Source: a virus | Virus record (IMG/VR): IMGVR_UViG_3300040815_003492 | Coordinates: 1 to 38,741 of that record | Length of the DNA stretch: 38,741 nucleotides | Reading direction: 5' to 3' (one strand) | Shown here: piece by piece, positions 3,736 through 32,891 of the stretch | Layout: every line of letters starts with the position of its first letter | Position numbering within the stretch: position 1 is the first letter of the stretch | Notes under the pieces: model-generated | What the model saw: the letters and a program-made list of their open reading frames with translations, nothing else | What the model was told of the DNA's origin: nothing | The model's database searches: none | Translations under genes and position numbers: made by a program

Positions 3736-3752
3736 ATGTAATATGTGTTTAT

Positions 3753-3772
3753 GATGCCCCCGGAGGGGCATC
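3753..3772. terminator. perfect 8-bp GC-rich hairpin between two minus-strand genes
   Basis: GATGCCCC and GGGGCATC form a perfect 8-bp stem around the tetraloop CGGA. Read on the plus strand it is followed by a T-rich run (TTTATTTTTATA), the shape of an intrinsic terminator; read on the minus strand, the direction of the neighbouring genes, it has no T-run, so there it could instead protect or punctuate the message ahead of the lysin gene. Confidence 0.6.
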
Positions 3773-7401: not shown

Positions 7402-7456
7402 GTTTCTCCAAAATTTTAGTTTTTTTAATAATTATGACTTTGTTTTTTCTATGATG

Positions 7457-8755
7457 TTAAAAATGGATCAGATAAACCTGCATGGTTGTCCATATTATCA
7501 CATCTCCCAACAAGTATATGAATATAAAAGGCATGGCATTGATGTTATATCTTTTCATTATAAAACCAATAATTGTATATCCTAGTAGTAAGGACAAATA
7601 ACTTATCCAAGATATTTCTTGTATAGATACATCCAAGTAAATCATACCTAACACCAACATCAATAGTATTATTTTTAATTGGCTATGTGCTAGTTTTACC
7701 ATAGAGGTATAAAAGTTTATAAATCTAAGACTCAACAAGTAATAAAAAACAACAGTTACCAATGCGAATATTATTATACTATCCAACACCGACACTCCGG
7801 GCAGTACGGTGCTTGACGATTTGGCTAATTCAATGACATTTACCACTTTGATATCCATTATGTTGCTCACAATAATACTGCTTGGAGTAAAAGGCAATCC
7901 GAGAAGAAAAAAAGGCAACAGCATCATGATCACTCCGGGATTGTTGGCAGTCTCGGCCGCTATAATCTTGTCATTGGTATTGGATCTGGTTGTATGATAG
8001 GCAGTTGCCGCTGATAGTTCTGCTGACGGACCGGGAATCAAACTGACCACACAGCCTACTATGGTGTTTTTTACTACCAACCACCATGGCAGTTTTGTTT
8101 TCTTTGGTTCAAATTTTTCTTTATCGTTTTTGATAAATCCAGTGTCATATGAGACAACATCAGGAATGACAACCATTGCAAGTACCAACATAAAGAAAGT
8201 TGTGTGTTGTAAAAATATGGAAGCAGAGTACCAACTTATTGGCAAAGCATAATTGTTTTGTGGAGCGATGAAAATAGCCATGAATGCTATCAAAGCCGTC
8301 ATTAGTTTTTTATTGCTAGTGAATATCAGAAATAATATCACTGTGTACAACAAAAAAAATTTTATTTCAACTCCTCCCATGAAACGCATTCCTGATGTTG
8401 TATAGGTAGTATAAAGTATCCATACCAAACACAGTGCCGAGAAGGCGCTTATCAGACTACCTCGCGACGTTTGCCATAGCAAACTGTTTCTTTCTGATAG
8501 TGATAACTTCTTAACATCATTGACATAAATCAGGCTACTCGCATCTCCAGGAATACCCAATGTGATGGTTGATACACTGCAAAAAAATTGAGATCCTATA
8601 CTGCTGACTGCCCAGAACAATAACATTTGTTCGGGTGACCAAATTGTGGCAGTAACATACAACAGAAATGCACCCAAATATATAGGAAATACAGGAAACA
8701 ATCCTATCAGTATTCCGGTCAGGATACCAGAAGATAAAATAATTGCAAGTTCCAT
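7457..8755 (-). CDS. tctA: TctA-family membrane transporter component
   Basis: 432 residues with about 10-12 hydrophobic segments. Two family motifs are visible: 'ITLGIPGDASSLIY' in the N-terminal half and 'SLIPGPSAELSAATAYHTTR', followed by 'AAETANNPGV', in the second half; these match TctA's PG-containing repeats and EAANN motif. TctA is the large permease of tripartite tricarboxylate transporters and normally has about 500 residues plus a small partner, TctB. No TctB-like four-helix gene is present here, so the pair may borrow the host's TctB. It lies 55 bases upstream of tctC in transcription order. A phage-borne secondary transporter of this family would raise organic-acid uptake during infection. 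Confidence 0.85.
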   Translation of the reverse strand: MELAIILSSGILTGILIGLFPVFPIYLGAFLLYVTATIWSPEQMLLFWAVSSIGSQFFCSVSTITLGIPGDASSLIYVNDVKKLSLSERNSLLWQTSRGSLISAFSALCLVWILYTTYTTSGMRFMGGVEIKFFLLYTVILFLIFTSNKKLMTALIAFMAIFIAPQNNYALPISWYSASIFLQHTTFFMLVLAMVVIPDVVSYDTGFIKNDKEKFEPKKTKLPWWLVVKNTIVGCVVSLIPGPSAELSAATAYHTTRSNTNDKIIAAETANNPGVIMMLLPFFLLGLPFTPSSIIVSNIMDIKVVNVIELAKSSSTVLPGVSVLDSIIIFALVTVVFYYLLSLRFINFYTSMVKLAHSQLKIILLMLVLGMIYLDVSIQEISWISYLSLLLGYTIIGFIMKRYNINAMPFIFIYLLGDVIIWTTMQVYLIHF

Positions 8756-9134: not shown

Positions 9135-9740
9135 TCAATCTCCAAACAAACTCAAGTCAAAATTTAATACAGTGGCAACTAGATGAACTCTATCTTCTTC
9201 TCCACCGTTGAATGCATTATGATATTTTGTGTTATTGGTTATCCATACGTGTCCGTCTGCAGGCATATGAAAGTTCACTGACTCAACAACCATGTGAGCA
9301 CCGGGATTAGTTATGATAGGTATGTGCAGTCTGGGTTCGGGATCTCTATGCCAGCTCAATGTTGTTCTTGGCAGTTTCCAAAGCAGTCTTATTCTACCCA
9401 ATTGATACTTTGTAGATAATGTATCATACACTTCTTTGAAGTAAGTGTCTTCAAACAATTTGACAAACTCGGAATACTTGGTCTCGTCTATGGGTTTTTC
9501 TCGAGTAACTTCTATCCCCGTGTGATCTGGCTTTGTCCAAAAGTAGCCTCTCACGTTGCCTCCGGTTATGGAATTTGGATCACCGGGTATCTGTGTTAAA
9601 CAAATTGCATTGATGTCTCTTTTACCAAGCGGAGATTGTCTAGCCACACGACTATCGACTTCTTGTACTGCTGATTGTAATTTGTTTATATCAAAATACA
9701 AATTTGGATCTTGATAAAAACCTTTTGGATATACATTCAT
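9135..9740 (-). CDS. 2OG-Fe(II) oxygenase, aspartyl/asparaginyl beta-hydroxylase-like
   Basis: 201 residues. 'LSWHRDPEPRLHIPIITNPGAHMVVE' holds the HxD iron ligands (H-R-D) and the basic strand, and 'YHNAFNGGEEDRVHLVATV' holds the distal His and the Arg that binds 2-oxoglutarate. This order and the short 'HIPI...NPG' spacing match the Asp/Asn hydroxylase branch, members of which are common in marine T4-like phages. It could hydroxylate a protein residue or a small molecule. Its start overlaps the stop codon of the ALDH gene (9740), so it is in the same unit as the lysine-degradation pair. Confidence 0.8.
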   Translation of the reverse strand: MNVYPKGFYQDPNLYFDINKLQSAVQEVDSRVARQSPLGKRDINAICLTQIPGDPNSITGGNVRGYFWTKPDHTGIEVTREKPIDETKYSEFVKLFEDTYFKEVYDTLSTKYQLGRIRLLWKLPRTTLSWHRDPEPRLHIPIITNPGAHMVVESVNFHMPADGHVWITNNTKYHNAFNGGEEDRVHLVATVLNFDLSLFGD

Positions 9741-11143
9741 TATACATCAAAAGTTATGCCTTGTGCCAAAGGCAAATCTTCTCCATAATTTACAGTGATG
9801 GTTGATCTACGCATATATTGTTTCCATGCATCCGAACCACTTTCTCGTCCACCGCCTGTGTCTTTCTCTCCACCAAATGCTCCACCAATTTCTGCACCTG
9901 AAGGACCTATATTAATATTTACAATACCACAGTCTGATCCCAGCACAGATATAAATTTTTCTGCTTCTTGCAGATTATCTGTAAAAATACAAGAACTTAA
10001 TCCCTGTGGAACAATGTTGTGTTTTCTGATAGCATTATCTAGAGTGATATACTTCAAAATGTACAGTATAGGAGCAAAAGTTTCGTTGTGTACCAACTCG
10101 TCCTGCTCTTTGACTTCCACTATGGCAGGTTTTACATAGCAACCTTCGATAACTTCTCCACCGTGTACAATATGTCCTCTTTCTCGACATTTTTTTAAAA
10201 CTTCTTGCATTCTATCAACAGATTGTTGATTGATCAAAGGTCCCACTAAATTTTTAGGATCCATTGGATCACCTATTGTCAAACTGCTGTATGCAGATTT
10301 AATTTTTTCAAGTAGTGTATCGTAAATGTTTTCGTTAACAATCAATCTTCTCAGTGTTGTACATCTTTGTCCGCAAGTTCCCACAGCACTGAATACTATG
10401 GCTCTAATCGCAAGATTCAAGTTTGCGTGTTGTGAAACTATCATTGCATTGTTACCACCCAATTCTAATAAAGATTTTCCTAATCTTGCCGAAACCCTCG
10501 GAGCCAATGCTTTGCCCATCTCTGTGGAACCTGTGGCACTTACTAATTTTATTCTAGGATCGTCTGCTATCCATTCGGCGGCTTCTTTTCCGCCTTCGAC
10601 TATGCCCAATAGATCTTGTAAATGAAATCTATCACCTTGTGTATGTTTCACTGTCACGTTTTTTAAAAATTCAACAATTGACTCATCCCATAACTCTTTA
10701 CATTTTAGAGTGATGTTCATACTGAGGGGTGATGGTTTCCATACAACAGAATTTCCACACACTATAGAAAGTATATGATTCCATGACCATACAGCACAAG
10801 GAAAATTAAAAGCAGATATGACCCCAACAACTCCGAGTGGATGCCATACTTCCATTAACTTGTGATCTTGTCTTTCCGATGGCATGGTCAATCCGTAAAG
10901 TTGTCTTGACAATCCCACCCCGAAATCACACATATCTATCGCTTCTTGTACCTCTCCTATTCCTTCCGCAATAATTTTTTTGGAATCCTTTGTGACCAGT
11001 TCTCCTAACTCTTGTAAATTTTCTCTTAATTTGTTGCCAAATATTCTGATTAGTTCTCCTCTTTTTGGAGCAGGAACATTTTTCCATAACATCTGGGCGT
11101 CCATGGCCCTGTTGACAATCACGTTATATTTTTGTTTATCCAT
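9740..11143 (-). CDS. ALDH7-family aldehyde dehydrogenase (alpha-aminoadipic semialdehyde dehydrogenase)
   Basis: 467 residues from the ATG at 11143, which has GGAG 6 bases upstream; a longer frame to 11179 is inside the previous gene. Hallmarks of the antiquitin (ALDH7) group are clear: 'SAFNFPCAVWSWN' (NAD site), 'LELGGNNAMIV' (general-base Glu), 'GTCGQRCTTLRR' (nucleophile Cys), and the C-terminal 'GPSGAEIGGAFGGEKDTGGG', 'WKQYMRRSTITVNY', 'LPLAQGI'. This family oxidises alpha-aminoadipic semialdehyde (in equilibrium with piperideine-6-carboxylate) to 2-aminoadipate with NAD+, the second step of lysine degradation by the saccharopine or lysine-6-dehydrogenase route. It directly follows, and overlaps by 8 bases, a saccharopine/lysine-dehydrogenase gene. 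Confidence 0.9.
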   Translation of the reverse strand: MDKQKYNVIVNRAMDAQMLWKNVPAPKRGELIRIFGNKLRENLQELGELVTKDSKKIIAEGIGEVQEAIDMCDFGVGLSRQLYGLTMPSERQDHKLMEVWHPLGVVGVISAFNFPCAVWSWNHILSIVCGNSVVWKPSPLSMNITLKCKELWDESIVEFLKNVTVKHTQGDRFHLQDLLGIVEGGKEAAEWIADDPRIKLVSATGSTEMGKALAPRVSARLGKSLLELGGNNAMIVSQHANLNLAIRAIVFSAVGTCGQRCTTLRRLIVNENIYDTLLEKIKSAYSSLTIGDPMDPKNLVGPLINQQSVDRMQEVLKKCRERGHIVHGGEVIEGCYVKPAIVEVKEQDELVHNETFAPILYILKYITLDNAIRKHNIVPQGLSSCIFTDNLQEAEKFISVLGSDCGIVNINIGPSGAEIGGAFGGEKDTGGGRESGSDAWKQYMRRSTITVNYGEDLPLAQGITFDV

Positions 11144-12158
11144 AAAGTTCTCCAAATTTATTACCAGTGAATACATCAAACGGTATATTTTCTTGACGTT
11201 GAAATCCTTTGCCTTTTAATTTGCCTTCGGCATAGGCCAGGACTACCGCACAGGCCCCGGATGCAGTGGTTCTCTGTATGGCACTGAAGTTTTCATCTCC
11301 GTAAATTTTTTTACTATACGTTACTTCTTGTAGCATACCATTCTTGATGCCGACCACACTGACGAACATCACAATGACATCAGCGGTAGTGTAAGGCACT
11401 TCCTGATCAAATAGATCAATAAATTTTTCTTTGTTGTGTTTTAAATTCAAATCGTCCAACAAGAATTTCATGCTGGCATGATGTCCTGGATATCTTATGG
11501 TTTTGTAGTCAAGTGTTTTGACTGTGTCAGAAAATGTTTCACACATAGAGGCCGCTCCACCAGATGTGTTAAAAGCCTCATATCTATCACCATCAACATA
11601 TAAAGTTTCTAAACCGTCCAATGGTAGTGTTTTGATGTGTTTGTTATTTCTAATAACATCACAATCATTTACGTATTCGTTGATCAATCCGGACGTACTC
11701 CATGTGAGATAATAGGCCATGGCATTGTTTGGATACTTAGGCAATGCTCCACCTCTCATATTAACTTTGTCCACTCTTTCAAATTGTTTGATAAGATTAC
11801 TTGCAACAATATTAATGGCTCCCGGAGCAAAACCACACTGCGGCATCATGAATGTGTCTGATTTGAAAGTCTTGATGTGATCTGTCACTGCTGTGTCTTC
11901 TGTGAGATCAAAATATGCCACATTGAATTTATTACAGGCATCTGCTATCAAAGGATTAGCATCATAAGGTGCTCCTGAGACCAATATATCTTGTTTAGAC
12001 ACAAAGGATTCCAGGTCGTCTTTGTTGAATACATCTATCTTTTGTACTTCATTTTTTTGTATTTTGTCCGCTATACTAATATTATGATCTGTTGTTTTTA
12101 GATAAGCATATATTGTTGATCCAATTTTACCAGAACCTATAATTCCAATATTTTTCAT
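11136..12158 (-). CDS. saccharopine / lysine-6-dehydrogenase family protein
   Basis: 340 residues. N-terminal Rossmann motif IGSGKIGSTIYAYL (residues 5-18); 'VSGAPYDANPLIADACNKFNVAYFDLTED' and 'MPQCGFAPGAINIVASNL' are typical of the saccharopine dehydrogenase family, including lysine 6-dehydrogenase. It would form alpha-aminoadipic semialdehyde from saccharopine or directly from lysine, reducing NAD(P)+. The coupled ALDH7 gene would complete conversion to aminoadipate. The GGAG that serves the ALDH start lies within its last codons. Which of the two substrates is used cannot be decided by eye; absence of a lysine-ketoglutarate reductase gene in the window favours lysine 6-dehydrogenase activity or use of a host enzyme. 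Confidence 0.8.
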   Translation of the reverse strand: MKNIGIIGSGKIGSTIYAYLKTTDHNISIADKIQKNEVQKIDVFNKDDLESFVSKQDILVSGAPYDANPLIADACNKFNVAYFDLTEDTAVTDHIKTFKSDTFMMPQCGFAPGAINIVASNLIKQFERVDKVNMRGGALPKYPNNAMAYYLTWSTSGLINEYVNDCDVIRNNKHIKTLPLDGLETLYVDGDRYEAFNTSGGAASMCETFSDTVKTLDYKTIRYPGHHASMKFLLDDLNLKHNKEKFIDLFDQEVPYTTADVIVMFVSVVGIKNGMLQEVTYSKKIYGDENFSAIQRTTASGACAVVLAYAEGKLKGKGFQRQENIPFDVFTGNKFGELYG

Positions 12159-18211: not shown

Positions 18212-19147
18212 ATGAAGAAAATGATTCTGACGTTGTTGATATCTATCATAACAACAACAATATCGGCCAAGGAATTTACAATGGCCATTCAACCCACCTT
18301 TGGTGCTCATCAGCATATAGGATATGAAATAATCGAGAGATTAGAAGCACGAGGCATAACAGTAAACACAGTACCAACAAAATCATCCATCAAAGGCAAT
18401 TCCTTACTGATGAATAAACAGATAGATGTCAACGTGGGGTCTATCACATCGTTCATTGTTTTAAATGATAAGATGCCTGAGCAAAGTTTGTTGCTATCTG
18501 CCATTGGGCATTACAAGTATTTCTTACAATGTACACCTGACATCAAAACAATGGACGATGTTAAAACTACAAAAATTGTCACTTCTGGTAGAAACACCTT
18601 GGAACATCACACAATCAGGTGGTTGGCAAAAGAACACTTTGGAGATCCTTATGCACTTGATGAAAATTTTATTACCATGAAAAGACCTCAAATATGGCAA
18701 ATATTGCAGGCCGGATCTTCTGACGTGAAATGCGTGATGACCGGAGCACCATTACAGAACAAGATACAGGACGAACTGGGTTTTGTTACAGTTGCCACAA
18801 GTGATGTTGAAAAAGGTATAGCAGGATCATACAATGCCTATTGGACAAGGAAAGATTGGGTTGATCAGAATCCCAGTTTGGCTTATGCTTTCATAACAAC
18901 AGCAGTAGAAGTTATACGTGATTACAACAAAGACCCTATAACAATTTTGGAAAAATTTATTCAGAAAGACAAAATGGACACAACTGCGGAGTATCTACAA
19001 AAAGGACACATAAAAAATCAAGCAATATTCCATTCCGATCTAAGGGGATCAGAGTATTTTAATAATTTTTTATACGAAATAGAATATCTCAAAGATAACA
19101 AAGGCGACATATCAAAAATGATCTATCGTGCAGGGGCGTTGAAATAA
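18212..19147 (+). CDS. ABC importer substrate-binding protein (NMT1/SsuA/TauA type)
   Basis: 311 residues with a signal peptide (KKMILTLLISIITTTISA, cleavage near residue 19). The mature part follows the NMT1/SsuA pattern for nitrate, sulfonate, taurine or thiamine-precursor binding proteins: 'MAIQPTFGAHQHIGYEIIERLEARG', 'MNKQIDVNVGSITSFIVLND', 'IVTSGRNTLEHHTIRWLAKEHFGD'. It lacks a lipobox. It is the first gene of a plus-strand unit followed directly by an ATPase (stop and next start share bases at 19147), an SDR and a permease, so it belongs to a complete importer. A promoter with TTGACA and TATAAT lies 40 bases upstream. Ligand not readable from sequence; sulfonates, taurine or pyrimidine are the family's usual ones. 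Confidence 0.82.
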   Translation: MKKMILTLLISIITTTISAKEFTMAIQPTFGAHQHIGYEIIERLEARGITVNTVPTKSSIKGNSLLMNKQIDVNVGSITSFIVLNDKMPEQSLLLSAIGHYKYFLQCTPDIKTMDDVKTTKIVTSGRNTLEHHTIRWLAKEHFGDPYALDENFITMKRPQIWQILQAGSSDVKCVMTGAPLQNKIQDELGFVTVATSDVEKGIAGSYNAYWTRKDWVDQNPSLAYAFITTAVEVIRDYNKDPITILEKFIQKDKMDTTAEYLQKGHIKNQAIFHSDLRGSEYFNNFLYEIEYLKDNKGDISKMIYRAGALK

Positions 19148-19698
19148 TGCAATTGATTTCCGTTGCTCCTCTCAGAAACAATGTAGAGTTATTTAGACCT
19201 ATAACTCTACATCTACGACCCGGCGAAGTAAACACGTTGATGGGAGCATCGGGTATTGGAAAAACTAGTCTTCTCGAATGTATCTCCGGAGGTTGTGAAT
19301 ACACAGGAAAGATCATAGACAATTCAAATATTTTCAGGGTATTTCAAGACACCAATCAACTATTTCCTTGGATGACCGTGAGGGAAAATTTAAGACTGGT
19401 TACAGATATAAATTGGAACAAGATTGCTAAAAAATTAAAATTAGAAAAACATTTGGATAAAATGCCCAACGAGTGTTCAGTTGGTCAGAAACAACGGTTT
19501 ACTCTGATGAGAGCTCTATATAGTGATAGATCAATATTGTTATGTGACGAACCCATGAGCGGTGTTGATGGTGCCACAGGAAAAGAAATAGTGAGAGAAT
19601 TTAAAAAATTAGTCAAAAGCACAAACAAAAAAGTTTTATGGGTCACACACAATCAAACAGAAGCCAAACAACTCGGAAAGGTTATAAAAATACAATGA
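19147..19698 (+). CDS. ABC transporter ATPase, short form
   Basis: 183 residues, shorter than the usual 230-260, but every catalytic motif is present: Walker A GASGIGKT (33-40), Q-loop Gln67 in 'VFQDTNQLFPWMTV', signature 'SVGQKQR' (111-117; Val for the first Gly of SGGQ), Walker B SILLCDE (129-135), and H-loop His168. The 'LFPWMTVREN' text is typical of the nitrate/sulfonate/taurine ATPases, matching the binding protein. The missing length is at the N-terminus and after the H-loop. The stop overlaps the SDR start (ATGA). It would power uptake through the permease encoded two genes downstream. Confidence 0.88.
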   Translation: MQLISVAPLRNNVELFRPITLHLRPGEVNTLMGASGIGKTSLLECISGGCEYTGKIIDNSNIFRVFQDTNQLFPWMTVRENLRLVTDINWNKIAKKLKLEKHLDKMPNECSVGQKQRFTLMRALYSDRSILLCDEPMSGVDGATGKEIVREFKKLVKSTNKKVLWVTHNQTEAKQLGKVIKIQ

Positions 19699-20264
19699 AA
19701 ATAGCATTAACTGGACATACTTCTGGTATTGGCAGAGAGTTTGCTGAAGCATTGAAAGATCAAGAATTAAAATGTTTTAGTAGATCAAACAGTTATTCAA
19801 TTGATACTAAAGCAGAAAGAGATAGGATTGTTAGAGAAGCACAAGATTGTGATGTATTCATCAGCAATGCATTTTCTGATGAGAACCCATGGGGTCAAAC
19901 AGAATTATTATTTGATCTATGGCAAGTTTGGAGAGGATTAAACAAAAGGATAATCTTAATATCAAGTTCTAATACACATCGATGGGAAAAAATAATGCAT
20001 GGCACTCGAGGAATTCAATATAGAACAGCCAAACAGTCTTTGGAGAATGCCGCAGAGCAGTTATGGAATGAATCTGATTGGCCATTAATCAATATTGTGG
20101 CTCCAACACTGATGAGAATTGAGAGAACTAAACATCTTAATTTTGGTCATCAAATGGACCCAAAAAATCTTAGCGATGCTGTAAGAAGAATATGTTTTGA
20201 GCAAGGACATCAAACACGAAAACTTATTTTTAATTGGTGGCCCAACACAGAAGGAAAACAATGA
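19695..20264 (+). CDS. short-chain dehydrogenase/reductase (SDR)
   Basis: 189 residues from the ATG at 19695, overlapping the ATPase stop; a longer frame from 19638 lies within the ATPase gene. Classical SDR features: TGHTSGIG (6-13), 'DVFISNAF' for the NNAG position, catalytic Ser in 'ILISSSN' (90-92), and YRTAK (Tyr109, Lys113). At 189 residues it is shorter than typical SDRs (about 250), and the C-terminal substrate loop is reduced. It is coupled by ATGA overlaps to the ATPase before and the permease after, so it probably acts on the imported compound. Such an enzyme within an importer operon of a phage is unusual. Confidence 0.82.
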   Translation: MKIALTGHTSGIGREFAEALKDQELKCFSRSNSYSIDTKAERDRIVREAQDCDVFISNAFSDENPWGQTELLFDLWQVWRGLNKRIILISSSNTHRWEKIMHGTRGIQYRTAKQSLENAAEQLWNESDWPLINIVAPTLMRIERTKHLNFGHQMDPKNLSDAVRRICFEQGHQTRKLIFNWWPNTEGKQ

Positions 20265-20989
20265 ACGGCATAAAAAGTTTTGCGATAATATTGGTTATTT
20301 GGCAATTGATATCAATGCTCATAGGAAACAGTTATATCTTGCCAGGTATAGATCGATTAATAGTAGAATATCCAAAATTGTTCTCTGATCTTAGATTCAT
20401 TCATTCACTGAATGATACTTTAATTTTTTTATTCAAATCTTGGATTTTAATATCAATAATTTTATTTGTTGTTGTTATTTTATCGGTATTAAACAGATCT
20501 TTTAGATTCATATTTAAGAGCCTATGTGCATCTTTACAGCCTACACCAACGTTTGCATGGTTACCGGTGTTCTTGCTTGTATTTGGCGTAAATGAAATCA
20601 CAATGATATTTTTATTGATATTTGCAACCATATGGATGGTAGGACTCAACATGATTGCTGTGCTAGAACATTCAATCTCCCAGTGGTCAAAGCATTGTGT
20701 TAATTTAAAACTATCTGTGCTAGATAGTGTTACCAAAGTTTATCTACCCAGTCTAAAACCTCTACTGATAGCCAATGTTAAAACTTGTTGGAATTTCAGT
20801 TGGCGAATACTGATTGGAATAGAAGTTGTATTTGGCACAATAGGACAGCACTGGGGAATTGGAACATATATGACAGATGCAAAAGATGTGATGGAAACAT
20901 CCACTATGTACGCTGTCTTTTTTATTATTATATTAATAGGTATCGTAGTGAACGAGCTATTTGATAAAACCCTTAAGGAGAAAAAGTAA
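20261..20989 (+). CDS. ABC importer permease (SsuC/TauC type)
   Basis: 242 residues from the ATG at 20261, overlapping the SDR stop (ATGA). Six hydrophobic segments: FAIILVIWQLISM, FLFKSWILISIILFVVVILSVL, FAWLPVFLLVFG, ITMIFLLIFATIWMVGLNMI, a later one around WRILIGIEVVFG, and MYAVFFIIILIGIVV. The cytoplasmic EAA-like loop appears as 'KLSVLDSVTKVYLPSLKPLLIANVK'. 'LQPTPTFAWLPVFLLVFG' is the pattern of the sulfonate/taurine/nitrate permeases ('PIPxxAWxPL'). It completes the importer: binding protein, ATPase, SDR, permease, all on one strand. Confidence 0.88.
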   Translation: MNGIKSFAIILVIWQLISMLIGNSYILPGIDRLIVEYPKLFSDLRFIHSLNDTLIFLFKSWILISIILFVVVILSVLNRSFRFIFKSLCASLQPTPTFAWLPVFLLVFGVNEITMIFLLIFATIWMVGLNMIAVLEHSISQWSKHCVNLKLSVLDSVTKVYLPSLKPLLIANVKTCWNFSWRILIGIEVVFGTIGQHWGIGTYMTDAKDVMETSTMYAVFFIIILIGIVVNELFDKTLKEKK

Positions 20990-23513: not shown

Positions 23514-24431
23514 CTACGTTCCTTTCGACAACAGATCGATTAATTTTTCTGTTGTTCCTAAATAATAACTTTTTGTTGTGCCCACGTGTCTTATCAGTGT
23601 TGTAAAATTTTTGTATTTTTTTGAATCAATGATTCTCCTGTCCATGGGTAGAGCGATCTTTGGTCTGGGAGAACAATTGAATATTTTGAACCTGTTTTCT
23701 TCTGTTGTCATTCCTGGATCTCTTGCGGCTATATAACTCAAGGTCACTTCCGGATTCCAATTTAAAACAGTCATTGGATGTTTGCCATCGGCGATCAATA
23801 ATTTCACAAGATCCGCTTCACTTTGTAGATATCCATGTTTCGTGTTTCCCTCGCTGTCTTTTAGTGTGGCGTCGTATTCTTCTTCGTACATGATGGGATC
23901 GGGTATGTACAATTCATTAAAACCCATCCCCGTCAACAATATTCCATCGCGATCATTCACATAATCCAACACAAACTTCACAGTGACAGAACCTGCTGTC
24001 ATTATGCTACAATATTTTTTTGAATGAGAGATCAGATTATCAATATACTGATCCTCGTTGATGTTGATCACGTGCGGTTCAATGTTGTTTTGTTTGCACC
24101 AACGAAATGCCCACCAAGTGTCTAACGAGTTCTCTTTGTTGAGAGTTACCACTATTGGTATGAATTTAATTTTTTGTTTGACCAATATGTCCGCAACATA
24201 CTCGCTGTCTATTCCCCCGCTCATGGCAAGATAGATTTTTTTATTATAAGTTTCGTGTATGTCTGATACTGCGTTTCTTGTGGCGACATCTATAGGAACA
24301 ATTTTATTGGTTCCTTGAGGTCTTAAAAAACATTCAAAATCGTTGCTTGGATATGGATTTTCATAACTTCTATTCCATTTATATTTTATCCAATTATCTT
24401 TACCGTATCCTGGCAGAGAATCATAATCCAT
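23514..24431 (-). CDS. PP-loop ATP pyrophosphatase (asparagine-synthase-like)
   Basis: 305 residues. PP-loop AMSGGIDSE at about residues 69-77; 'FIPIVVTLNKENSLDTWWAFRWC' and 'NNIEPHVININE' give the next two Rossmann strands, and 'DGILLTGMGFNELYIPDP' the second nucleotide segment (GMGFNE, like GxGxDE). Organised like the C-terminal half of an asparagine synthase or a QueC-type enzyme without glutaminase domain. Its ATG overlaps the end of the Rieske gene by 11 bases, so oxygenase and ligase are co-translated, suggesting one pathway. Third PP-loop protein of the window; sequence differs clearly from the other two. Confidence 0.78.
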   Translation of the reverse strand: MDYDSLPGYGKDNWIKYKWNRSYENPYPSNDFECFLRPQGTNKIVPIDVATRNAVSDIHETYNKKIYLAMSGGIDSEYVADILVKQKIKFIPIVVTLNKENSLDTWWAFRWCKQNNIEPHVININEDQYIDNLISHSKKYCSIMTAGSVTVKFVLDYVNDRDGILLTGMGFNELYIPDPIMYEEEYDATLKDSEGNTKHGYLQSEADLVKLLIADGKHPMTVLNWNPEVTLSYIAARDPGMTTEENRFKIFNCSPRPKIALPMDRRIIDSKKYKNFTTLIRHVGTTKSYYLGTTEKLIDLLSKGT

Positions 24432-25299
24432 TATTTCGTAACCAATTTATGTAATGTGTTTTTTGTTTTTCCAAAAATTTAGATTGAAAGTGAGGTACAA
24501 CCGATTCGGATTGTGTTTTATCTTGGCTCCAGGCAGTTTCCCATATGTGACAGTTCAACTCCCAATTCTTTTCGGAATATCTTGTGTCTCTGTATTTGTA
24601 AACAGTCACATTGGTTTCTTTATCGTTGATTGGGTTACAGACAGTGTTGAACCAAGCACCAGGAAAGTATTCCATCATTGTGTATGGATACACACAGAAC
24701 CAAGCGGCACCGTGTTTCCTTTCTCGATCTTCTTGTAGCATTGTCTGTCCAAAATCATTATCTAATTTTTCTTTGTTGTTGGGAGCATACTGCACTGACG
24801 AATTTTCTAAAATCTCCCATTCAACTTCTTCCACAGATAGTTGATCATATATTTTTGGATGAACTACCGGAAGATGATCCATGTCTAAAAAAATATTAAC
24901 AATATCAATATAATTTGCCTTTACATTATCTACACGCATTTCTTCCAACACAAGATGATCGCTCTTGATATAATCTATTGTGGGCAAGTCGTGTTTTTCA
25001 GAAAACAAATAGCCATTCCATTCAAAAACTTCTTTATTTTCTAAATTCTCTTCATTCTTACACCAATGTGAAGTGCTACCGGAACCAACAGGTTCTCCTT
25101 TGCTTGTGAATGACCAACCATGATATGGACATAGTCTGGTATTTTGTCCTTGTGTTCCTTTAAAATAAGAACCCTGATGTGGACAGATATTGCTGTAAAG
25201 AGTGTACAGGTCTTTGTTTTTATTTAATGACCAATCTTTTAAATGTGGTAAAACTTTCCACGAATTATTTTCCAAATCGTTTTTGTGTCCGAGCAACAT
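24421..25299 (-). CDS. Rieske non-heme iron oxygenase, alpha-subunit type
   Basis: 292 residues. The Rieske [2Fe-2S] ligands are CPH at 39-41 and CPYHGW at 57-62 (Cys57, His60). The mononuclear iron site is DMDHLPVVH with His142 and His147, spaced H-x4-H as in ring-hydroxylating oxygenases. The protein is shorter than the usual 400-450 residues. It needs an electron donor reductase, which I do not see in this window, so it would depend on a host ferredoxin or reductase. The co-translated partner is a PP-loop enzyme. The phage's SufE/SufT genes could help supply its cluster. An AATAAATA box (25308-25315) lies upstream. Confidence 0.9.
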   Translation of the reverse strand: MLLGHKNDLENNSWKVLPHLKDWSLNKNKDLYTLYSNICPHQGSYFKGTQGQNTRLCPYHGWSFTSKGEPVGSGSTSHWCKNEENLENKEVFEWNGYLFSEKHDLPTIDYIKSDHLVLEEMRVDNVKANYIDIVNIFLDMDHLPVVHPKIYDQLSVEEVEWEILENSSVQYAPNNKEKLDNDFGQTMLQEDRERKHGAAWFCVYPYTMMEYFPGAWFNTVCNPINDKETNVTVYKYRDTRYSEKNWELNCHIWETAWSQDKTQSESVVPHFQSKFLEKQKTHYINWLRNNGL

Positions 25300-26866: not shown

Positions 26867-27673
26867 TTAATGTTTAATGATAGAGTCGATGTCGTGTAAT
26901 TTACGTAACAACGGTTCTAGATCTTTCAAATTTAAGTTATTGGGACCATCTGAATATGCCTGATCAGGATTGTTATGAACTTCCATGAAGATCGAAGCAA
27001 CACCAACGGCAACACCTGCCTGTGCGATCACCGGAATGTGTTCTCTATTTCCTCCGGATGTTGTTCCTTGTCCTCCCGGTTGTTGACAAGAGTGTGTGGC
27101 ATCTAGACACACAGGGTATCCTGTCTTCTTCATTTCGTATAAAGATCGCATATCAGTGACCAGTGTGTTGTATCCAAAAGACACTCCACGTTCACATAAC
27201 ATTATTTTATTGTTGCCCGTGGATGCTATTTTTTCTGCCGAATGCTTGATGTCCCATGGTGCCATGAATTGTCCTTTCTTAAGGTTGATCCATTTGTTTG
27301 TTCTGCCAGCCGCTAATAACAGATCAGTCTGTCTGGAAAGGAACGCAGGTATCTGTAACATATCTACAACTTCTGCGACAGGACCACACTGCTCGGCCGT
27401 GTGTATGTCTGTTACCACAGACACATCAAATTCTTTTTTTAATTTTTCAAATATCTTTAGTCCTTCTTCAAGTCCCACACCTCGCTTACCTTGTAGAGAA
27501 GTACGATTAGCCTTATCAAAAGATGATTTATATATAAAGTTCCAGTTATTTTTGTCACAAATACTTTTAATGGATTCACACATTCTAAATGCATGGCTCT
27601 CTGATTCTATTTGGCAAGGTCCTAACACAGCAAATAATTTTTTATCGTTGCCTAGCATTGAGTCTATATTCAT
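26867..27673 (-). CDS. kdsA: 3-deoxy-D-manno-octulosonate 8-phosphate synthase
   Basis: 268 residues, full length for KdsA. Family blocks: 'LGPCQIESE', 'YKSSFDKANRTS', 'RGVGLEEGLKIF', 'TDIHTAEQCGPVAEVVDMLQIPAFLSRQTDLL', 'LCERGVSFGYNTLVTDMRSL', 'DATHSCQQP', 'FMEVHNNPDQA.SDGPN'. It condenses phosphoenolpyruvate and arabinose 5-phosphate into KDO-8-phosphate, the precursor of the KDO in LPS. Cys20 in GPCQ is the metal ligand of the metal-dependent class; E. coli has Asn there. The start shares bases with the stop of the sugar dehydrogenase gene (TAATG). It suggests the phage feeds KDO into LPS or glycans during infection. Confidence 0.93.
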   Translation of the reverse strand: MNIDSMLGNDKKLFAVLGPCQIESESHAFRMCESIKSICDKNNWNFIYKSSFDKANRTSLQGKRGVGLEEGLKIFEKLKKEFDVSVVTDIHTAEQCGPVAEVVDMLQIPAFLSRQTDLLLAAGRTNKWINLKKGQFMAPWDIKHSAEKIASTGNNKIMLCERGVSFGYNTLVTDMRSLYEMKKTGYPVCLDATHSCQQPGGQGTTSGGNREHIPVIAQAGVAVGVASIFMEVHNNPDQAYSDGPNNLNLKDLEPLLRKLHDIDSIIKH

Positions 27674-28470
27674 TATTGTTTTTCCCTTCTTAAATTATTA
27701 TTGATATCTATTGTTTTTTCCAATTGAGTGAATGGTATCTTTAGTATTTCTCGAGCAAAGTAAGCCAAAGCCGAAGTATCTTTTGGAAAACAGGATCCCG
27801 CATATCCTCTTTGTCCGTCATTGCCTGGTACTTTAAGATGTGTTGCTCCAATACGAGGATCTGTTGCGATAATTTTTGCAAAAGTTTCCCAATCAGCACC
27901 ACCGGCAGATTTTAATACATCATACATCTCGTTCATGAAAGTAACTTTGGTTGCCAAAAAACTATTGATACAATATTTGATCATGGACGCTGTTATTATA
28001 TCTGTTTTAAAAACAGGACAAGGTTTACAGATTGAATGATTCTTATATAAGTTTTCGACCCAATCTGTGCTCTCGTGTTCTCCGCCAAAAATATGCATAG
28101 ATGGATTACAAAAATCATTTATATAATTTTTTTCAGTGAGAAATTCTGGATTATATACTAATCTTATATTTGAAAATTGTTTTATTATTTTTTCTATCAT
28201 GTAAGATGGCACTGTGCTTTTTAATATTACAAATTGTGTGTAGTTGTTTAATTGTTTCATGACATCGAAAAGAATAGAAACATCACATTCCCCTGTAACC
28301 GACTGTGGAGTGGGAACACAAACAAAGGTTGCGTCTGGCTTGAAATTAATTAAATCTTGTATTGAATTGTTGTTGTGTTTTGGATCAACTATCAATTTAT
28401 CAATAGTATGCGTGAATCCATGATCCACTGCTGATCCTACAAACCCATGTCCGATAATACCCAGTTTCAT
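27673..28470 (-). CDS. UDP-glucose/GDP-mannose dehydrogenase family, short form
   Basis: 265 residues; normal family members have 390-450. The NAD-binding Rossmann motif is IIGHGFVGSA (5-14), 'VCVPTPQS' and 'NPEFLTEKNYINDF' follow, and the catalytic Cys stands in 'GYAGSCFPKDTSAL'. The protein ends soon after the catalytic loop, so the C-terminal UDP-binding domain is absent. The missing domain suggests altered substrate binding, or use of a shorter substrate; similar short forms exist in marine phages to my knowledge. It is transcribed from its own promoter (TAGACA, 17 bases, TATAAT) 9 bases upstream and coupled to kdsA. Confidence 0.85.
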   Translation of the reverse strand: MKLGIIGHGFVGSAVDHGFTHTIDKLIVDPKHNNNSIQDLINFKPDATFVCVPTPQSVTGECDVSILFDVMKQLNNYTQFVILKSTVPSYMIEKIIKQFSNIRLVYNPEFLTEKNYINDFCNPSMHIFGGEHESTDWVENLYKNHSICKPCPVFKTDIITASMIKYCINSFLATKVTFMNEMYDVLKSAGGADWETFAKIIATDPRIGATHLKVPGNDGQRGYAGSCFPKDTSALAYFAREILKIPFTQLEKTIDINNNLRREKQ

Positions 28471-28479
28471 ATGTGTTAT

Positions 28480-28508
28480 ATTATACTGGGTATTATGAAC
28501 AATGTCTA
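28480..28508 (-). promoter_or_regulatory. sigma70-type promoter, near-leaderless, for the sugar dehydrogenase/kdsA pair
   Basis: -35 TAGACA at 28503-28508, 17-base spacer, -10 TATAAT at 28480-28485, then 9 bases to the ATG at 28470. Confidence 0.65.
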
Positions 28509-28514
28509 CTGTTT

Positions 28515-28913
28515 TTACAGTCCCATAAGGTCACGCACCTCGGGGTTGATCATGTCTCTACCCCATTGTGGTTGCATTGTGATCTTGACCTTGCACTTGA
28601 GACCTGATATGCTCTCCACCTTGTCCATGACGTCTTTTGGTATGATGTCCGCCGCTGGACAGAATGCACTGGTCAGGCTCATCAGCACGTGCACCGTCCG
28701 ATCCTCTGTGACCTTGACGTCGTATATCAGGCCCAGGTTGTATATGTCCACGCTGATCTCGGGATCATAGCACTCCTTGAGTTTCTCGACTATGCTGGGC
28801 ATCAGTTCTTCCTGTGTTGGTGGATGTTCCTTGATGTCTTTTAGATCAGTTTCCAGTTGTGGGTCAACGGATGCACTGTCATTTGGCACCCATCCTGGAG
28901 GTGTCTCAATCAT
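28515..28913 (-). CDS. SufT/MIP18-family (DUF59) Fe-S assembly protein
   Basis: 132 residues. Core 'IVEKLKECYDPEISVDIYNLGLIYDVKV' matches the DUF59 N-terminal signature (DPEI.V.I..LGLIY), and 'MSLTSAFCPAADIIPKDV' matches the Thr/Ser-x-CP stretch with the conserved Cys, ending in an aromatic-basic strand (MQPQWGRD). These proteins help mature Fe-S clusters (SufT, CIA2, PaaD). An N-terminal extension of about 35 residues is not part of the domain. It overlaps the end of sufE by 8 bases. GC is clearly higher here (57% in the line at 28681) than in the neighbouring dehydrogenase gene, a sign of mosaic origin. Confidence 0.88.
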   Translation of the reverse strand: MIETPPGWVPNDSASVDPQLETDLKDIKEHPPTQEELMPSIVEKLKECYDPEISVDIYNLGLIYDVKVTEDRTVHVLMSLTSAFCPAADIIPKDVMDKVESISGLKCKVKITMQPQWGRDMINPEVRDLMGL

Positions 28914-29307
28914 GTGCTATCCTTATGATTCTGTTGATCAGTTCTCCCAGTCCGTTCTGCCTCTGCATTGTCAGTAGTTCTTTTATGCCCAGTGGTTCAA
29001 AACTTTCCACTGTGAGGTTCGCAACGGCACTCCTGTGCTCACCGTTTACTATGTCCGTGACAACTTTAGCAGTTCCTTTAGTAATAAAGGCATCACCATC
29101 AACTCTGTATTGCATTTTATTTTCTGCATCTGCACCGCCCACTATCCATAACTTACTGGCACAACCGTGTATTCTATTTTCTTCTGTTTTAACGGCGTCT
29201 GGTAACGGCTCTACTTCTTTTGCTTTGTCAACAAGATATTGTAGACGATCATGGCCTTCTAGCATTTTTAGATCATTACCAAATTCTTTTATTTTTTCTA
29301 GTATCAT
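28906..29307 (-). CDS. sufE: SufE-like sulfur acceptor
   Basis: 133 residues. SufE signature: 'VEPLPDAVKTEENRIHGCASKLWIVGG', with the persulfide-carrying Cys49 in HGCASKLW, and the helical end 'IKELLTMQRQNGLGELINRI' matching the family's 'L...L.P.R.NGL..M'. SufE takes sulfur from the cysteine desulfurase SufS and stimulates it. It is the first gene of a unit with SufT and lies just after nrdB. It starts with -10 TACCAT only 6 bases from the ATG, so it is probably read from a leaderless transcript. Together with SufT it may help load clusters during infection. Confidence 0.92.
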   Translation of the reverse strand: MILEKIKEFGNDLKMLEGHDRLQYLVDKAKEVEPLPDAVKTEENRIHGCASKLWIVGGADAENKMQYRVDGDAFITKGTAKVVTDIVNGEHRSAVANLTVESFEPLGIKELLTMQRQNGLGELINRIIRIAHD

Positions 29308-29349: not shown

Positions 29350-30450
29350 TTATAATGAAAACTTTTTGAATGAGTCTTTTTTGACGTCTTGTTTGATACC
29401 ACCCACAATGTATGATTCCACTTCTGTCTCTTGTGGTGCCACCTGCATACCTTTTGATGACAGCCAATGCTGTGTCCAAGGTAAAGGATTTTGTGATGCT
29501 GATATATCATAAATTGGATCAAAGCCCAGTGCTCTCAATCGCTTGTTTGCTGTCCACTCAACATAAGATCCTAATAATCTTTCGTTCAATCCAATAATTG
29601 ATCCGTCTCTGAATAGATATTTCGCCCAGGCTTTTTCTTCTTCCACACAGTCTTTGAACATCTGGATCACAGTTTTTTCTGTACCTTTCATTGCTTTGGT
29701 CATTTCAGGATCATCACCTTTTTGCCATGCTTTGATCACGTGTGTTGAAAGGTTCAAGTGTGTGGCTTCATCCCTAGCGATCAGTGAGAGGATCTTGGCC
29801 GATCCCTCCATCAATTTCAATTCACCAAACGCAAAGGTACAAGCAAATGAAATATAAAATCTCAAACCCTCCAGCAAGTTCACGGTCATCATTGCCAGAT
29901 ACAGTTGTTTCTTAAGTTCGATCATGTCCACTTTTTTGCCCACAGCATAATCCATGGCCATTGCTCCGAACTTGTCATACTCACCTGTTACACTTTCTGC
30001 TCTTTTTAATATTTCTTTGTCATCTAATATTGTGTCAAACACTTCTGATGGATCCGAATACACATTCTTCATGATGTGTGTGTATGATCTTGAGTGTATG
30101 GTTTCGAAGAAATCCCAAGTCACAATACAGCCTTCCAGTTCCGGATTAGAAACATATGGCAAGAACATAAGACTTGGTCCTCTGCCCTGCACTGAATCCA
30201 ACAGTGTTTGATATTTTAGATTGCTGGTGAATATGTGTTTTTGTTCTGGTCTGAATCCTTGATAGTCTGCTCTGTCTTTTTGTAATGAAACTTCTTCTGG
30301 TCTCCAGAAGTAACCAATCATGGTTTGGTTCAGTTTATCAAATTGTGGATATTTGAAATCGTCGTACCTCTGTACGCCACCGTCCTCACCAAAGAACATG
30401 GGTTGTTTTGTGAAATCTATTTTTTGTTTATTGAATACTGTCTTCGTCAT
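29350..30450 (-). CDS. nrdB: class Ia ribonucleotide reductase, small subunit
   Basis: 366 residues, collinear with E. coli NrdB. The diiron ligands are visible: Asp in 'YQTLLDSVQG', Glu and His in 'FFETIHSRSYTHI', plus later Glu and His ('ARDEATHLN'); the tyrosyl radical Tyr is the Y of SRSYTH. C-terminus 'DSFKKFSL' ends in the acidic-hydrophobic tail that docks into NrdA. It generates the radical used by NrdA to make dNTPs. It follows nrdA by 8 bases. An exact TATAAATA (30456-30463) spans the nrdA stop and lies 5 bases before its ATG, which may give it separate late transcription. Confidence 0.97.
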   Translation of the reverse strand: MTKTVFNKQKIDFTKQPMFFGEDGGVQRYDDFKYPQFDKLNQTMIGYFWRPEEVSLQKDRADYQGFRPEQKHIFTSNLKYQTLLDSVQGRGPSLMFLPYVSNPELEGCIVTWDFFETIHSRSYTHIMKNVYSDPSEVFDTILDDKEILKRAESVTGEYDKFGAMAMDYAVGKKVDMIELKKQLYLAMMTVNLLEGLRFYISFACTFAFGELKLMEGSAKILSLIARDEATHLNLSTHVIKAWQKGDDPEMTKAMKGTEKTVIQMFKDCVEEEKAWAKYLFRDGSIIGLNERLLGSYVEWTANKRLRALGFDPIYDISASQNPLPWTQHWLSSKGMQVAPQETEVESYIVGGIKQDVKKDSFKKFSL

Positions 30451-30455
30451 CGGGT

Positions 30456-30463
30456 TATTTATA
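30456..30463 (-). promoter_or_regulatory. TATAAATA box at the nrdA stop codon
   Basis: Exact T4 late -10 sequence overlapping the TAA of nrdA and ending 5 bases before nrdB. It may be fortuitous, because nrdA ends in an AT-rich stop. Confidence 0.4.
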
Positions 30464-32891
30464 TTGCACAGGCGTCACAGGCTTCTTCGTCCTCACTGTT
30501 CTCATTTACTCCAAGATCGGTTAGTTGTACGTCTTCACCATCTGCGGTTTCTGTGGTCTCTATACCTGATGGTTGTACATCTTCTTCGTCACCTTTGAAA
30601 TCATAAGTGTTTTGATAGTAAGAAGTTTTCCAACCGTATTTGTATGAATTTAATAAATCCGAAGCCATTACTGACAACGGTACTTCGTTATTTTCATAGT
30701 TGAGTGGATTGTAACTCCAGTTGCCCGATATGGCTTGGTCAAAATATTTCTGCATCATTGCCACAACATTGATGTAACCTTCATTTGATGGCATATCCCA
30801 CAACAGAGTGTAGGCATTTTTAAGTTTAGGAAAGCCTGGCACAATCTGTTTGAGTGGACCTTTCTTGCTTTTCTTAATGGATAACAATGCTCTTGGTGGT
30901 TCGATGCCGTTGGTTTCATTACTGACAACGGAAGAACTTTCCGATGGCATCTGTGCTGATAGTGTGGAATGTCTTAGTCCGTATTTTATAATGTCTTTTC
31001 TCAGTGACTCCCATGCATATCTTTGTTTGTGTGGCACAATTTTATCTATATCTTTTTTGTATGTGTCTATAGGCAGTATTCCGTCTGCATATTTTGTTTG
31101 AGAGAAACCTTCGCAGGCACCACGTTCTTCTGCCAGTTTGTTGGATGCTTTAAGTAGATTGAATTGAAATGCTTCGGATAGTCTATCCACTGAGTCCCAT
31201 GCTTCTGGTTGTGAATAATTAAAACCTAGTTTGGCTAGATAATGTGCCAACCCAATATAGCCAACACCCAAACTTCTTCTTTTCTTTGTGCTGGTCTCTG
31301 CCGCTTTGACAGGATACTCTTGATATTCTATAATTTCTTCCAAGGCTCTCACAGCCAGGTCACATAAGTTTTCTAACTCTTCTAAATTATTGAGGGCACC
31401 CACATTGATTGCAGAAAGAATACATAAAGCAATCTCACCTTTGTCGTCGTCGATGTGTTGTATGGGTGTTGTTGGCAATGTTATTTCTTGGCAAAGGTTT
31501 GACATACTAACTTTATCTTTGAAGGACGAATGTGAATTACAATGATCTATGTTCATTATGTAGATACGTCCTGTCTCTGCTCTTTCTTTCAATAGATCAA
31601 AAAATAGTTCTTGTGCTGAAATAGTTTTTTTAGGAACATTTTTATCTTTTTCATATTTTACATATAAATCATCAAACTTGTCTGTGCCGAACGCATCATA
31701 CAGTCCCGGGGTTTCGTGTGGAGAGAACAAAGTTATTTCTTCGTCGTTAATGAATCTTTCGTAAAACAGTTTAGATAACTGGATTGAATAATCTAATTTT
31801 CTAACCCTGTTGTCTTCTGTGCCTTTGTTGTTTTTCAGAACTAATATGTCTTCGATTTCTTGGTGCCATATTGGGAAGTGTACAGTTGCTGAACCACCTC
31901 GCACACCGTTCTGTGTGCAACACCTTACTGTGCTTTCGAATTTTTTGAGGAACGGGACGACACCAGTGTGTTGAACTTCACCACCACGTATCTTAGAATT
32001 GATACCACGAATTCTACCAGCATTAATACCAATTCCTGCACGACGAGCCACGTAAAGACCAATAGCCATGTCAGTACTAAAAATGCTAGGAAGAGTGTCG
32101 TCGCTGTCAACGAGAACACAACTTGCAAACTGTCTGATAGGCGTACGTACACCGGCCATGACCGGAGTTGGGATATTAATTTTGAATTGAGAAATTGCGT
32201 CATAATATTTTTTAACATAGCTCATCCTTTTGTTTTTTGGATAATCGGCAAACAGTGTTGCTGAGATCATCATGTACATATCTTGTGGAGTTTCGTACAA
32301 CTCGCCCGACGATCTGTCTTGTACAAGATACTTATCTACCACTTGTCTTAAACCAGCATAGGCAAAATTTAGATCTCTGTCTCTTCTTATCCAAGTGTTA
32401 AATTTTTTTAATTCGGTTTTATTGTATTTTTCAACGATGCCTTTGTCATACACACCCAATCTGATATTTCTCAAAATTAATTTCAAGAGTGGCATATATT
32501 CATATTGACCGTGTGCTTCTTTTCTCACATCATAAAGCAGTAACCTTGCCGCGGCATATTGATAATTGGGATTTTCCAGAGTGGTCAGGTCATTGGCTGA
32601 ACGCACAAGAACATTTTGAATGTCCTTCGTCGACATTCCGTCATAAAATTGCAAGTTGGCATTGATTTCTATCTGTGATGCTGATACCCCAGACAAATCT
32701 TCACAGGCTTCTTCAACAACAAAATGAATTTTATTGATGTCCAATGGCTCCAACCTGCCATCTCTTTTTGCGACATTGATGGCGGAGGTATTAATATTGG
32801 TCATTACACTATTATTCAAATTGGATTTTGTTTTTTTTGTATGGGTATTTATCAGATTTTTTTGTTCTTGTACCGAAATGTTTGCTGTCAT
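30459..32891 (-). CDS. nrdA: class Ia ribonucleotide reductase, large subunit
   Basis: 810 residues. An N-terminal ATP-cone ('VAKRDGRLEPLDINKIHFVVEEAC', around residues 37-60) follows a 35-residue tail; an intact cone implies dATP feedback. Active-site parts: Cys in 'ASCVLVDS', 'NLCQEITLP' with its radical Cys, 'LCILSAINVGAL', the YY radical-relay pair in 'TSYYQNTY', and the C-terminal redox pair in EACDACAI. It reduces ribonucleoside diphosphates. The upstream region is only AT-rich with a weak promoter (TAGACT, 17, TATAAT). Length is larger than E. coli NrdA (761). Together with NrdB it forms the class Ia enzyme typical of large T4-like phages. Confidence 0.97.
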   Translation of the reverse strand: MTANISVQEQKNLINTHTKKTKSNLNNSVMTNINTSAINVAKRDGRLEPLDINKIHFVVEEACEDLSGVSASQIEINANLQFYDGMSTKDIQNVLVRSANDLTTLENPNYQYAAARLLLYDVRKEAHGQYEYMPLLKLILRNIRLGVYDKGIVEKYNKTELKKFNTWIRRDRDLNFAYAGLRQVVDKYLVQDRSSGELYETPQDMYMMISATLFADYPKNKRMSYVKKYYDAISQFKINIPTPVMAGVRTPIRQFASCVLVDSDDTLPSIFSTDMAIGLYVARRAGIGINAGRIRGINSKIRGGEVQHTGVVPFLKKFESTVRCCTQNGVRGGSATVHFPIWHQEIEDILVLKNNKGTEDNRVRKLDYSIQLSKLFYERFINDEEITLFSPHETPGLYDAFGTDKFDDLYVKYEKDKNVPKKTISAQELFFDLLKERAETGRIYIMNIDHCNSHSSFKDKVSMSNLCQEITLPTTPIQHIDDDKGEIALCILSAINVGALNNLEELENLCDLAVRALEEIIEYQEYPVKAAETSTKKRRSLGVGYIGLAHYLAKLGFNYSQPEAWDSVDRLSEAFQFNLLKASNKLAEERGACEGFSQTKYADGILPIDTYKKDIDKIVPHKQRYAWESLRKDIIKYGLRHSTLSAQMPSESSSVVSNETNGIEPPRALLSIKKSKKGPLKQIVPGFPKLKNAYTLLWDMPSNEGYINVVAMMQKYFDQAISGNWSYNPLNYENNEVPLSVMASDLLNSYKYGWKTSYYQNTYDFKGDEEDVQPSGIETTETADGEDVQLTDLGVNENSEDEEACDACAI

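Follow-up and report, generated by a model that had tools for sequence, protein, structure and literature searches.

The sequence comparisons suggest that the overlapping sufE and sufT genes of a marine virus belong to a phage SUF pathway of modular make-up, through which more Fe-S clusters would become available to phage enzymes, and we consider this to be the probable function of the pair. As part of this explanation, both genes would belong to the phage lineage rather than being a fresh pick-up from a host. The genes lie in a 38.7-kb marine virus record, itself a fragment, which was analysed over its whole length and is referred to here as the window. In total, the pathway reading is drawn from (i) the families, folds and conserved cysteines of the two proteins, (ii) purifying selection on both genes, (iii) their distance from the sampled bacteria, and (iv) the FdxA neighbour and the SUF gene sets of related phages.

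Results

Genomic surroundings of sufE and sufT

The two genes are encoded on the minus strand: sufE (28906-29307; PF02657, E=4.3e-29) codes for a sulfur-acceptor or transpersulfurase-type protein of 133 aa and sufT (28515-28913; PF01883, E=1.2e-14) for a DUF59/FeS_assembly_P protein of 132 aa, and their reading frames share 8 bp. On the same strand and 42 bp upstream of sufE lies nrdB for the small subunit of class I ribonucleotide reductase (29350-30450; PF00268, E=1.6e-51; phrog_86), with nrdA for the large subunit beyond it (30459-32891; PF02867, E=1.1e-135; phrog_84). Coordinates, Pfam matches and strand all confirm what a sequence-only reading of this DNA had described as an overlapping SufE-DUF59 (SufT) pair behind nrdAB. 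PHROG matches in the window comprise NrdA, NrdB, an exonuclease, a DNA ligase and a virion structural protein, and neither SufE nor SufT matched a PHROG family at E 0.01.

The same reading had named a radical SAM and a Rieske enzyme of the phage, and both are present on the minus strand: a radical SAM and SPASM protein (1896-2810; PF04055, E=5.2e-9; PF13186, E=1e-4) and a Rieske [2Fe-2S] domain protein (24421-25299; PF00355, E=6e-7). These two proteins are the likely Fe-S clients in the window. In this 38.7-kb fragment SufB, SufC, SufD and SufS gave no match over cut-off, and an FdxA gene was detected neither by pattern search nor by tblastn. When the near relatives G001 and G002 (34 and 64 kb) are included, all three records being fragments, SufB, SufS and FdxA were likewise not found and SufC gave nothing over cut-off, an ABC ATPase-like ORF matching it weakly.

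On its other side, sufT faces a ugd-like dehydrogenase gene (27673-28470, minus strand; PF00984/PF03721), and the site between the two genes varies between relatives. It is empty in the window (28471-28514) and contains an 86-aa ORF in L003 (6798-7058), a PBP_like_2 (PstS-like) gene in L004 (7067-8023) and, judged by eye, a ThyX-like ORF in L020 (4542-5171).

SufE and SufT proteins

SufE matches PF02657 over residues 17-128 with 101.2 bits (gathering cut-off 27). Its Cys49, which we take to be the persulfide-carrying cysteine, sits in a G-C-x-S motif and is invariant in all 15 aligned phage rows. SufT matches PF01883 with 54.8 bits (gathering cut-off 23.5), and its conserved motifs are D-P-E, L-G-L-x-Y and a cysteine, with D50, P51, E52, L60, G61, L62, Y64 and C85 invariant in all nine rows compared (six from phages, three from bacteria). 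Cys85 is invariant in 29 of 29 phage rows and in three of three bacterial rows, a unanimity that is biased among the 29 because many of them were collected by a pattern containing Cys85. The AlphaFold2 model of SufT has a mean pLDDT of 80.9 with a poorly predicted N-terminal extension (lowest at residues 1-20), its top Foldseek matches are the DUF59 structures 3cq2 and 3lno, and Rv1466 of M. tuberculosis (5ird) is among the solved structures that match the window protein. The median dN/dS is 0.076 for both genes, based on the unsaturated pairs (18 of 55 for sufE and 25 of 66 for sufT). Given that the matches cover most of both family models, that the cysteines are conserved and that sufT immediately follows sufE on further viral contigs, the pair is not a chance arrangement; it is genuine and appears to be functional.

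The AlphaFold2 model of SufE (mean pLDDT 89.3) has E. coli SufE, 1mzg, as its top Foldseek match (E=3.9e-9, TMq 0.82). At the level of equivalog models the assignment is less specific: with its first residue left out, the protein reaches 56.1 bits for the SufE model NF006792 (cut-off 160) and 52.5 bits for the NCBIfam CsdE model, both under cut-off. Because NCBIfam separates SufE and CsdE poorly for this protein, sulfur delivery to other acceptors is possible. Specifically, SufE could be a CsdE-like acceptor whose sulfur goes into the thiolation of tRNA or nucleotides and not into Fe-S clusters, a proposal to which the similar model scores, CsdE (4lw4) as the best sequence match among solved structures and a weak Asn_synthase/PP-loop-like protein in the window (23514-24431) lend some weight. 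Given that the top structural match is SufE and that relatives link sufE with genes for SufT, SufB, SufC, SufS-like proteins and FdxA, we regard a role in thiolation as unlikely.

GC content and a putative recombination patch

Both genes had been described as lying in DNA with a higher GC content than their neighbours. This holds for sufT (GC 50.4%, GC3 61%) and for the last third of sufE, but not for sufE overall (GC 40.3%, GC3 32%), the first part of which (29061-29307) has a GC content of 36.4%. Between 28501 and 29060 the GC content is 49.1% compared to a window mean of 36.7%, and fewer than 0.1% of the 560-bp stretches of the window are as GC-rich. The last third of sufE and all of sufT would accordingly make up a candidate recombination patch at about 28500-29060.

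Compared to L003 and L004, the NrdA, NrdB, Ugd and KdsA proteins of the window are 98-100% identical, SufE is 93-94% identical and SufT 64%. Outside the patch, DNA identity to L004 is 95-100%; base by base, there are five differences from 29600 to 29056, differences are dense from 29041 on, and identity recovers from about 28500-28490 to 95% (L003) and 97% (L004). In the SufE tree the window and L003 are paired with a support of 92%; in the SufT tree a starred group of 11 rows holds L003 and excludes the window, and by path length the window lies closest to L020, L014 and L083, with identities of up to 87%. The contrast between SufT and SufE identities, the tree positions and the sharp borders fit a scenario in which the 3' end of sufE plus sufT would have been swapped by recombination between flanks that are near-identical to those of L004.

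A donor of the patch was not seen among the related sufT genes compared; those of L005, L008, L009, L014, L020 and L083 have a GC content of 39-44%, unlike the patch. The sufE gene of L005 (6001-6399; GC 50.4%, GC3 62%) resembles sufT of the window in composition and hints at a GC-richer, unsampled source of the cassette. As evidence that both genes came recently from a host, the GC rise is rejected, given that only the patch is GC-rich and that identities to L003 are 94% for SufE, 99-100% for NrdB and Ugd and 64% for SufT.

In principle, the patch borders could also stem from a chimeric assembly join. The metagenome-type record and the sharpness of the borders would be in line with a more general view in which the two genes are passengers or an assembly artefact and have no function in the phage. 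This is very improbable: the reading frames are open across both borders, 138 viral stretches encode SufE relatives, the median dN/dS is about 0.08, and the gene pair is repeated in L002, L003 and L004, which are contigs of three dataset numbers.

Distribution in viruses and comparison with bacteria

Of the 138 stretches obtained in the SufE scan of viral contigs, 80 were analysed as loci, as were 80 of the 114 stretches from a scan with a SufT alignment. SufT is encoded in at least 11 of the 80 SufE loci and SufE in at least 14 of the 80 SufT loci. An FdxA-type ferredoxin gene lies within 200 bp of sufE in at least 31 of the 80 SufE loci, and nrdA or nrdB is found in at least four of them; these counts are lower bounds because contig ends cut many loci. 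At the level of whole records, FdxA is encoded on 32 of 48 records with SufE/SufT versus two of 18 records without. A DUF5856 protein adjoins sufE in one group, and no tie of this protein to iron was established.

The adjacency to nrdAB is not general to sufE loci, and this bears on a second function that the gene order in the window brings to mind. In E. coli, the yfaE ferredoxin, which is encoded beside nrdAB, maintains the NrdB cofactor. The pair could serve the adjacent class I ribonucleotide reductase by supplying Fe-S clusters to a ferredoxin that maintains the di-iron/tyrosyl cofactor of NrdB. The order nrdA-nrdB-sufE-sufT, codirectional and with short gaps, is compatible with this, as is the location of nrdAB upstream of sufE and FdxA in L021 (with at least three ORFs between) and of an nrdB end about 3.7-4 kb before sufE in L354 and L358. 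Such a role is nevertheless improbable, given that no more than the four sufE loci mentioned contain nrdA or nrdB, that 13 of 17 nrdB-drawn records of at least 30 kb, themselves fragments, lack SufE and SufT, and that the ferredoxin neighbour in relatives is FdxA, presumably of the 7Fe type and not 2Fe-2S.

Among 50,697 isolate-phage records, from which nearby records may have been left out, no close match to SufE or SufT was found. The matches obtained, in 5 and 11 records, all have less than 60% identity and may represent bacterial DNA inside phage records (the annotation of one record was examined and another has no annotation). The best bacterial SufT is 51% identical among the matches listed (80 kept of at least 593 genome stretches), the best among 142 genomes of a single class, 95 of which gave a match, is 48% identical, and bacterial SufE proteins from six genomes are 28-34% identical to that of the window; a close bacterial donor was not found among the genomes sampled. 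In 95 bacterial loci, fetched mainly by SufT, both genes occur in 61 and lie at most 150 bp apart in 54 of these 61, mostly in the order sufS-sufE-sufT. The phage genes are thus ordered like those at the end of bacterial suf operons. In the SufE and SufT trees the phage rows are set apart from the bacterial ones with moderate support (SH-aLRT 85-86%), and in the SufB tree the viral rows do not form one group (4 changes); bacterial rows in these trees are mostly from Bacteroidota, and part of the bacterial and viral rows was left out beforehand.

SUF genes on related viral records

A SufB-type SUFBD_core is encoded on seven of the 49 SufE/SufT records (window included), and four of these seven have a second, short SUFBD_core ORF. 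Aminotran_5 matches were obtained on seven of the 49 records (three at E<1e-120), and SufC over cut-off on three of 67. SufB of G015 and G052 exceeds the NCBIfam equivalog cut-off (844 and 856 bits versus 717), and SufC of G037 and G050 exceeds that of TIGR01978. All phage SufS proteins tested stay under the model cut-off of 475.1 bits, with 471.2 for that of G037, the best, and 240-467 for the others; those of G037 and G052 (467) miss it narrowly. SufD is about 143-215 aa in several related phages, and the match of the short SufD-like proteins is confined to the SufD core (111-127 bits versus a cut-off of 222). The SufE-like protein of G050 is without the G-C-x-S motif.

One record, G052 (IMGVR_UViG_3300020477_001008; 242,646 bases), has matches to SufB, SufC, SufD, SufS, SufE and SufT on one contig together with the T4 gp23 major capsid protein, FdxA and an Nfu protein before SufT. 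Its radical SAM matches at E 0.001 number 23, and some of these stay under the family cut-off. Across the collection, gp23 occurs on five of 67 records, as expected for fragments.

These findings bear on the proposal, made from the sequence of the window, that the pair diverts the host's assembly line to the phage enzymes. The presence of Fe-S assembly families and of client genes agrees with it, but it is incomplete, as relatives encode a SufB of their own and, in some cases, SufC, SufD-like and SufS-like proteins as well. A harsher variant holds that the pair seizes or blocks the host SUF machine (SufS or SufBCD), such that host Fe-S proteins fail and those of the phage are served, in line with the lack of a detectable desulfurase or scaffold gene in the 38.7-kb window. 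Blockade is quite improbable in view of the active-site cysteines and the strong purifying selection that the proteins retain, and the addition of own SUF genes by relatives is a better fit to supply.

Several contigs link SUF genes to the gene order of the window. G015 (L357/L365) has the order FdxA-SufB-(53-aa ORF)-SufE-SufT followed by two ORFs, a Ugd homologue, one ORF and a KdsA homologue. On the 172-kb contig of L371, SufB occupies the position of the window's radical SAM/SPASM gene and a small ORF, and is flanked by homologues of window 3073-3771 (54%) and 1085-1639 (86%) and, further out, of 3780-4130, 712-1074 and 297-755. In L381, SufB lies about 7 kb from NrdA and NrdB that are 80% identical to those of the window.

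Contiguous SUF gene sets

A SufB scan gave 111 viral stretches, of which 80 were analysed. Four loci (L412, L415, L420 and L437) contain a contiguous set SufB-SufC-short SufD-SufS-like-SufE-SufT, to which some add a glutaredoxin, a radical SAM protein, FdxA or an A-type carrier; in L420 the match to the carrier falls slightly short of its cut-off. The SUFBD core, SufE and FeS_assembly_P are over cut-off in all four. SufB exceeds the equivalog cut-off of 717 bits in L415, L420 and L437 (845, 820 and 814) and was detected by phmmer only in L412; SufC is over the TIGR01978 cut-off of 212.8 in L412 (220) and L415 (236) and under it in L420 (160) and L437 (156). A SufS family is the best match, under its cut-off of 475, in L412, L415 and L437 (312, 335 and 241), and the desulfurase-like gene of L420 has an Aminotran_5 match. 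Phage neighbours of the sets are a clamp loader and PhoH (L420 and L437), gp31-like (L415 and L420) and MazG-like (L412) genes; collagen-like repeats may account for a tail-fibre-type match in L437.

The cysteine of SufB that aligns to what we take to be C405 of the E. coli protein is kept in G015, G052, L415 and L371 and lost in L412 and L420. By regular expressions, the SufC signature motifs are complete only in G037 and G050, and the SufS lysine motif was not found in L415. In this cysteine loss, the motif gaps in SufC and SufS and the sub-cut-off scores, some of the phage SUF proteins differ from a plain bacterial copy. A full-length SufD (384-438 aa) is present in L423-L430, L432, L438, L440, L441, L443 and L444; the phage status of these contigs is based on IMG/VR and, in three, on gene order assessed by eye, with few informative PHROG matches.

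In total, we lean towards a broader model in which uncultured T4-like phages would own a working Fe-S factory to serve their many radical SAM enzymes. It would consist of SufB-SufC-SufD-SufS-SufE-SufT plus FdxA and an A-type carrier, and its SufD would often be reduced to the C-terminal core. In this model, which we hold with less confidence than the pathway reading, the pair in the window would be a reduced or scattered form of the factory.

Association with radical SAM proteins

Radical SAM matches number 171 in 3.10 Mb on the 48 SufE/SufT records compared to 20 in 0.91 Mb on the 18 records without, i.e. 5.5 versus 2.2 per 100 kb (p=0.0023 by the Mann-Whitney test; a value this high arose in 66 of 20,000 label shuffles), a comparison of fragmentary records in which lineage is not controlled. 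At least one match is present on 36 of the 48 records with SufE/SufT and on seven of the 18 without. Within the nrdB-drawn subset the difference is weak (3 in 160 kb with SufE/SufT versus 7 in 646 kb), and in the ligase-drawn subset the numbers are 33 in 518 kb versus 13 in 266 kb. No radical SAM match was obtained in G001 and G002, the two near relatives of the window.

Discussion

Combining the protein, gene order and distribution data, we suggest that between them SufE and SufT would relieve two likely bottlenecks of Fe-S supply in infection, allowing a quick maturation of phage Fe-S enzymes. SufE would transfer persulfide sulfur from a SufS-type cysteine desulfurase to a SufB-containing scaffold, SufT would help to hand finished clusters to apoproteins, and FdxA, judged from what is known of its family, would act as electron donor. 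The scaffold and desulfurase could be those of the host, or they could be encoded elsewhere in the phage genome. The radical SAM and Rieske proteins of the window, and the many radical SAM proteins of its relatives, are the presumed clients.

The bacterial SUF system (SufABCDSE and SufT) comprises the same protein families, and the order sufS-sufE-sufT is the same at the operon end. It differs in that the window holds sufE and sufT alone and in that several related phages have a shortened SufD. In S. aureus and M. tuberculosis, the DUF59 protein SufT functions in Fe-S protein maturation, in S. aureus under high Fe-S demand, according to the excerpts used of PMC4982691 and PMC9045647; these are bacterial genes, and their comparison with phage SufT is through the Rv1466 structure (5ird).

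Viral Fe-S assembly genes, and the idea that they supply Fe-S clusters to phage enzymes, have already been published. As far as the excerpts of PMC5332604 extend, an A-type carrier and IscU, up to 12 radical SAM genes and PaaD occur in T4-like environmental genomes, and the use of Fe-S clusters by viral proteins is proposed. The likeness to the present genes lies in the T4-like marine phages, the many radical SAM enzymes and the Fe-S hypothesis, and PaaD may be DUF59 kin; in the section on Fe-S genes, SufE, SufT, FdxA and a SufBCD scaffold are not mentioned. A viral sufE without sufS from a marine oxygen minimum zone is interpreted in excerpts of PMC8940887 as a helper for host SufS; the same excerpts describe no SufT pair, FdxA neighbour or phage scaffold, whereas the related phages described here have SufS-like genes. 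NifU, NifS, ferredoxin, Fe-S proteins or sufS on viral contigs or a viral-type element appear in excerpts of PMC7785012, PMC7678222, PMC10721903 and PMC7692377. No description of a phage SufBCDS operon was found in the literature searched, which was in part available as excerpts and largely without subscription journals and bioRxiv preprints.

Viruses are usually regarded as borrowers of Fe-S assembly, a service provided by the host. Under the broader factory model, Fe-S synthesis would be a viral function, beyond a host function that is tuned by viruses. If, together with many radical SAM enzymes, these phages supply the factors for sulfur transfer, scaffolding, electron donation and cluster delivery, Fe-S supply would be a limiting step in infection and a trait on which selection acts in the virus. 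The short SufD proteins would offer a natural means of determining which portion of SufD cluster assembly requires.

Additional genes were observed on the contigs described here. Near the SUF set of L412 (1837-4150) lie genes for a pyridine nucleotide-disulphide oxidoreductase and a 2Fe-2S ferredoxin domain protein, possibly the electron supply of the set. G052 (L354, L355 and L356) encodes the ribosomal proteins L7/L12 and S21 and, judged by eye, ClpX- and IF-3-like ORFs. The 65.6-kb viral contig G020 (L359:4601-5020, L127:4586-5872) contains genes for ribosomal protein L11 and cytochrome b, and also for SufB, a short SufD-like ORF and SufT. In the window itself, a TctA permease gene with a weak TctC-like neighbour (under cut-off) forms a tripartite tricarboxylate transporter-like pair at 6568-8755; aldehyde dehydrogenase and saccharopine dehydrogenase-like genes adjoin each other at 9740-12158; and an ABC importer-like set at 18212-20989 consists of an NMT1-like binding protein and a BPD_transp_1 permease, between which, by eye, lie ABC ATPase-like and SDR-like ORFs.
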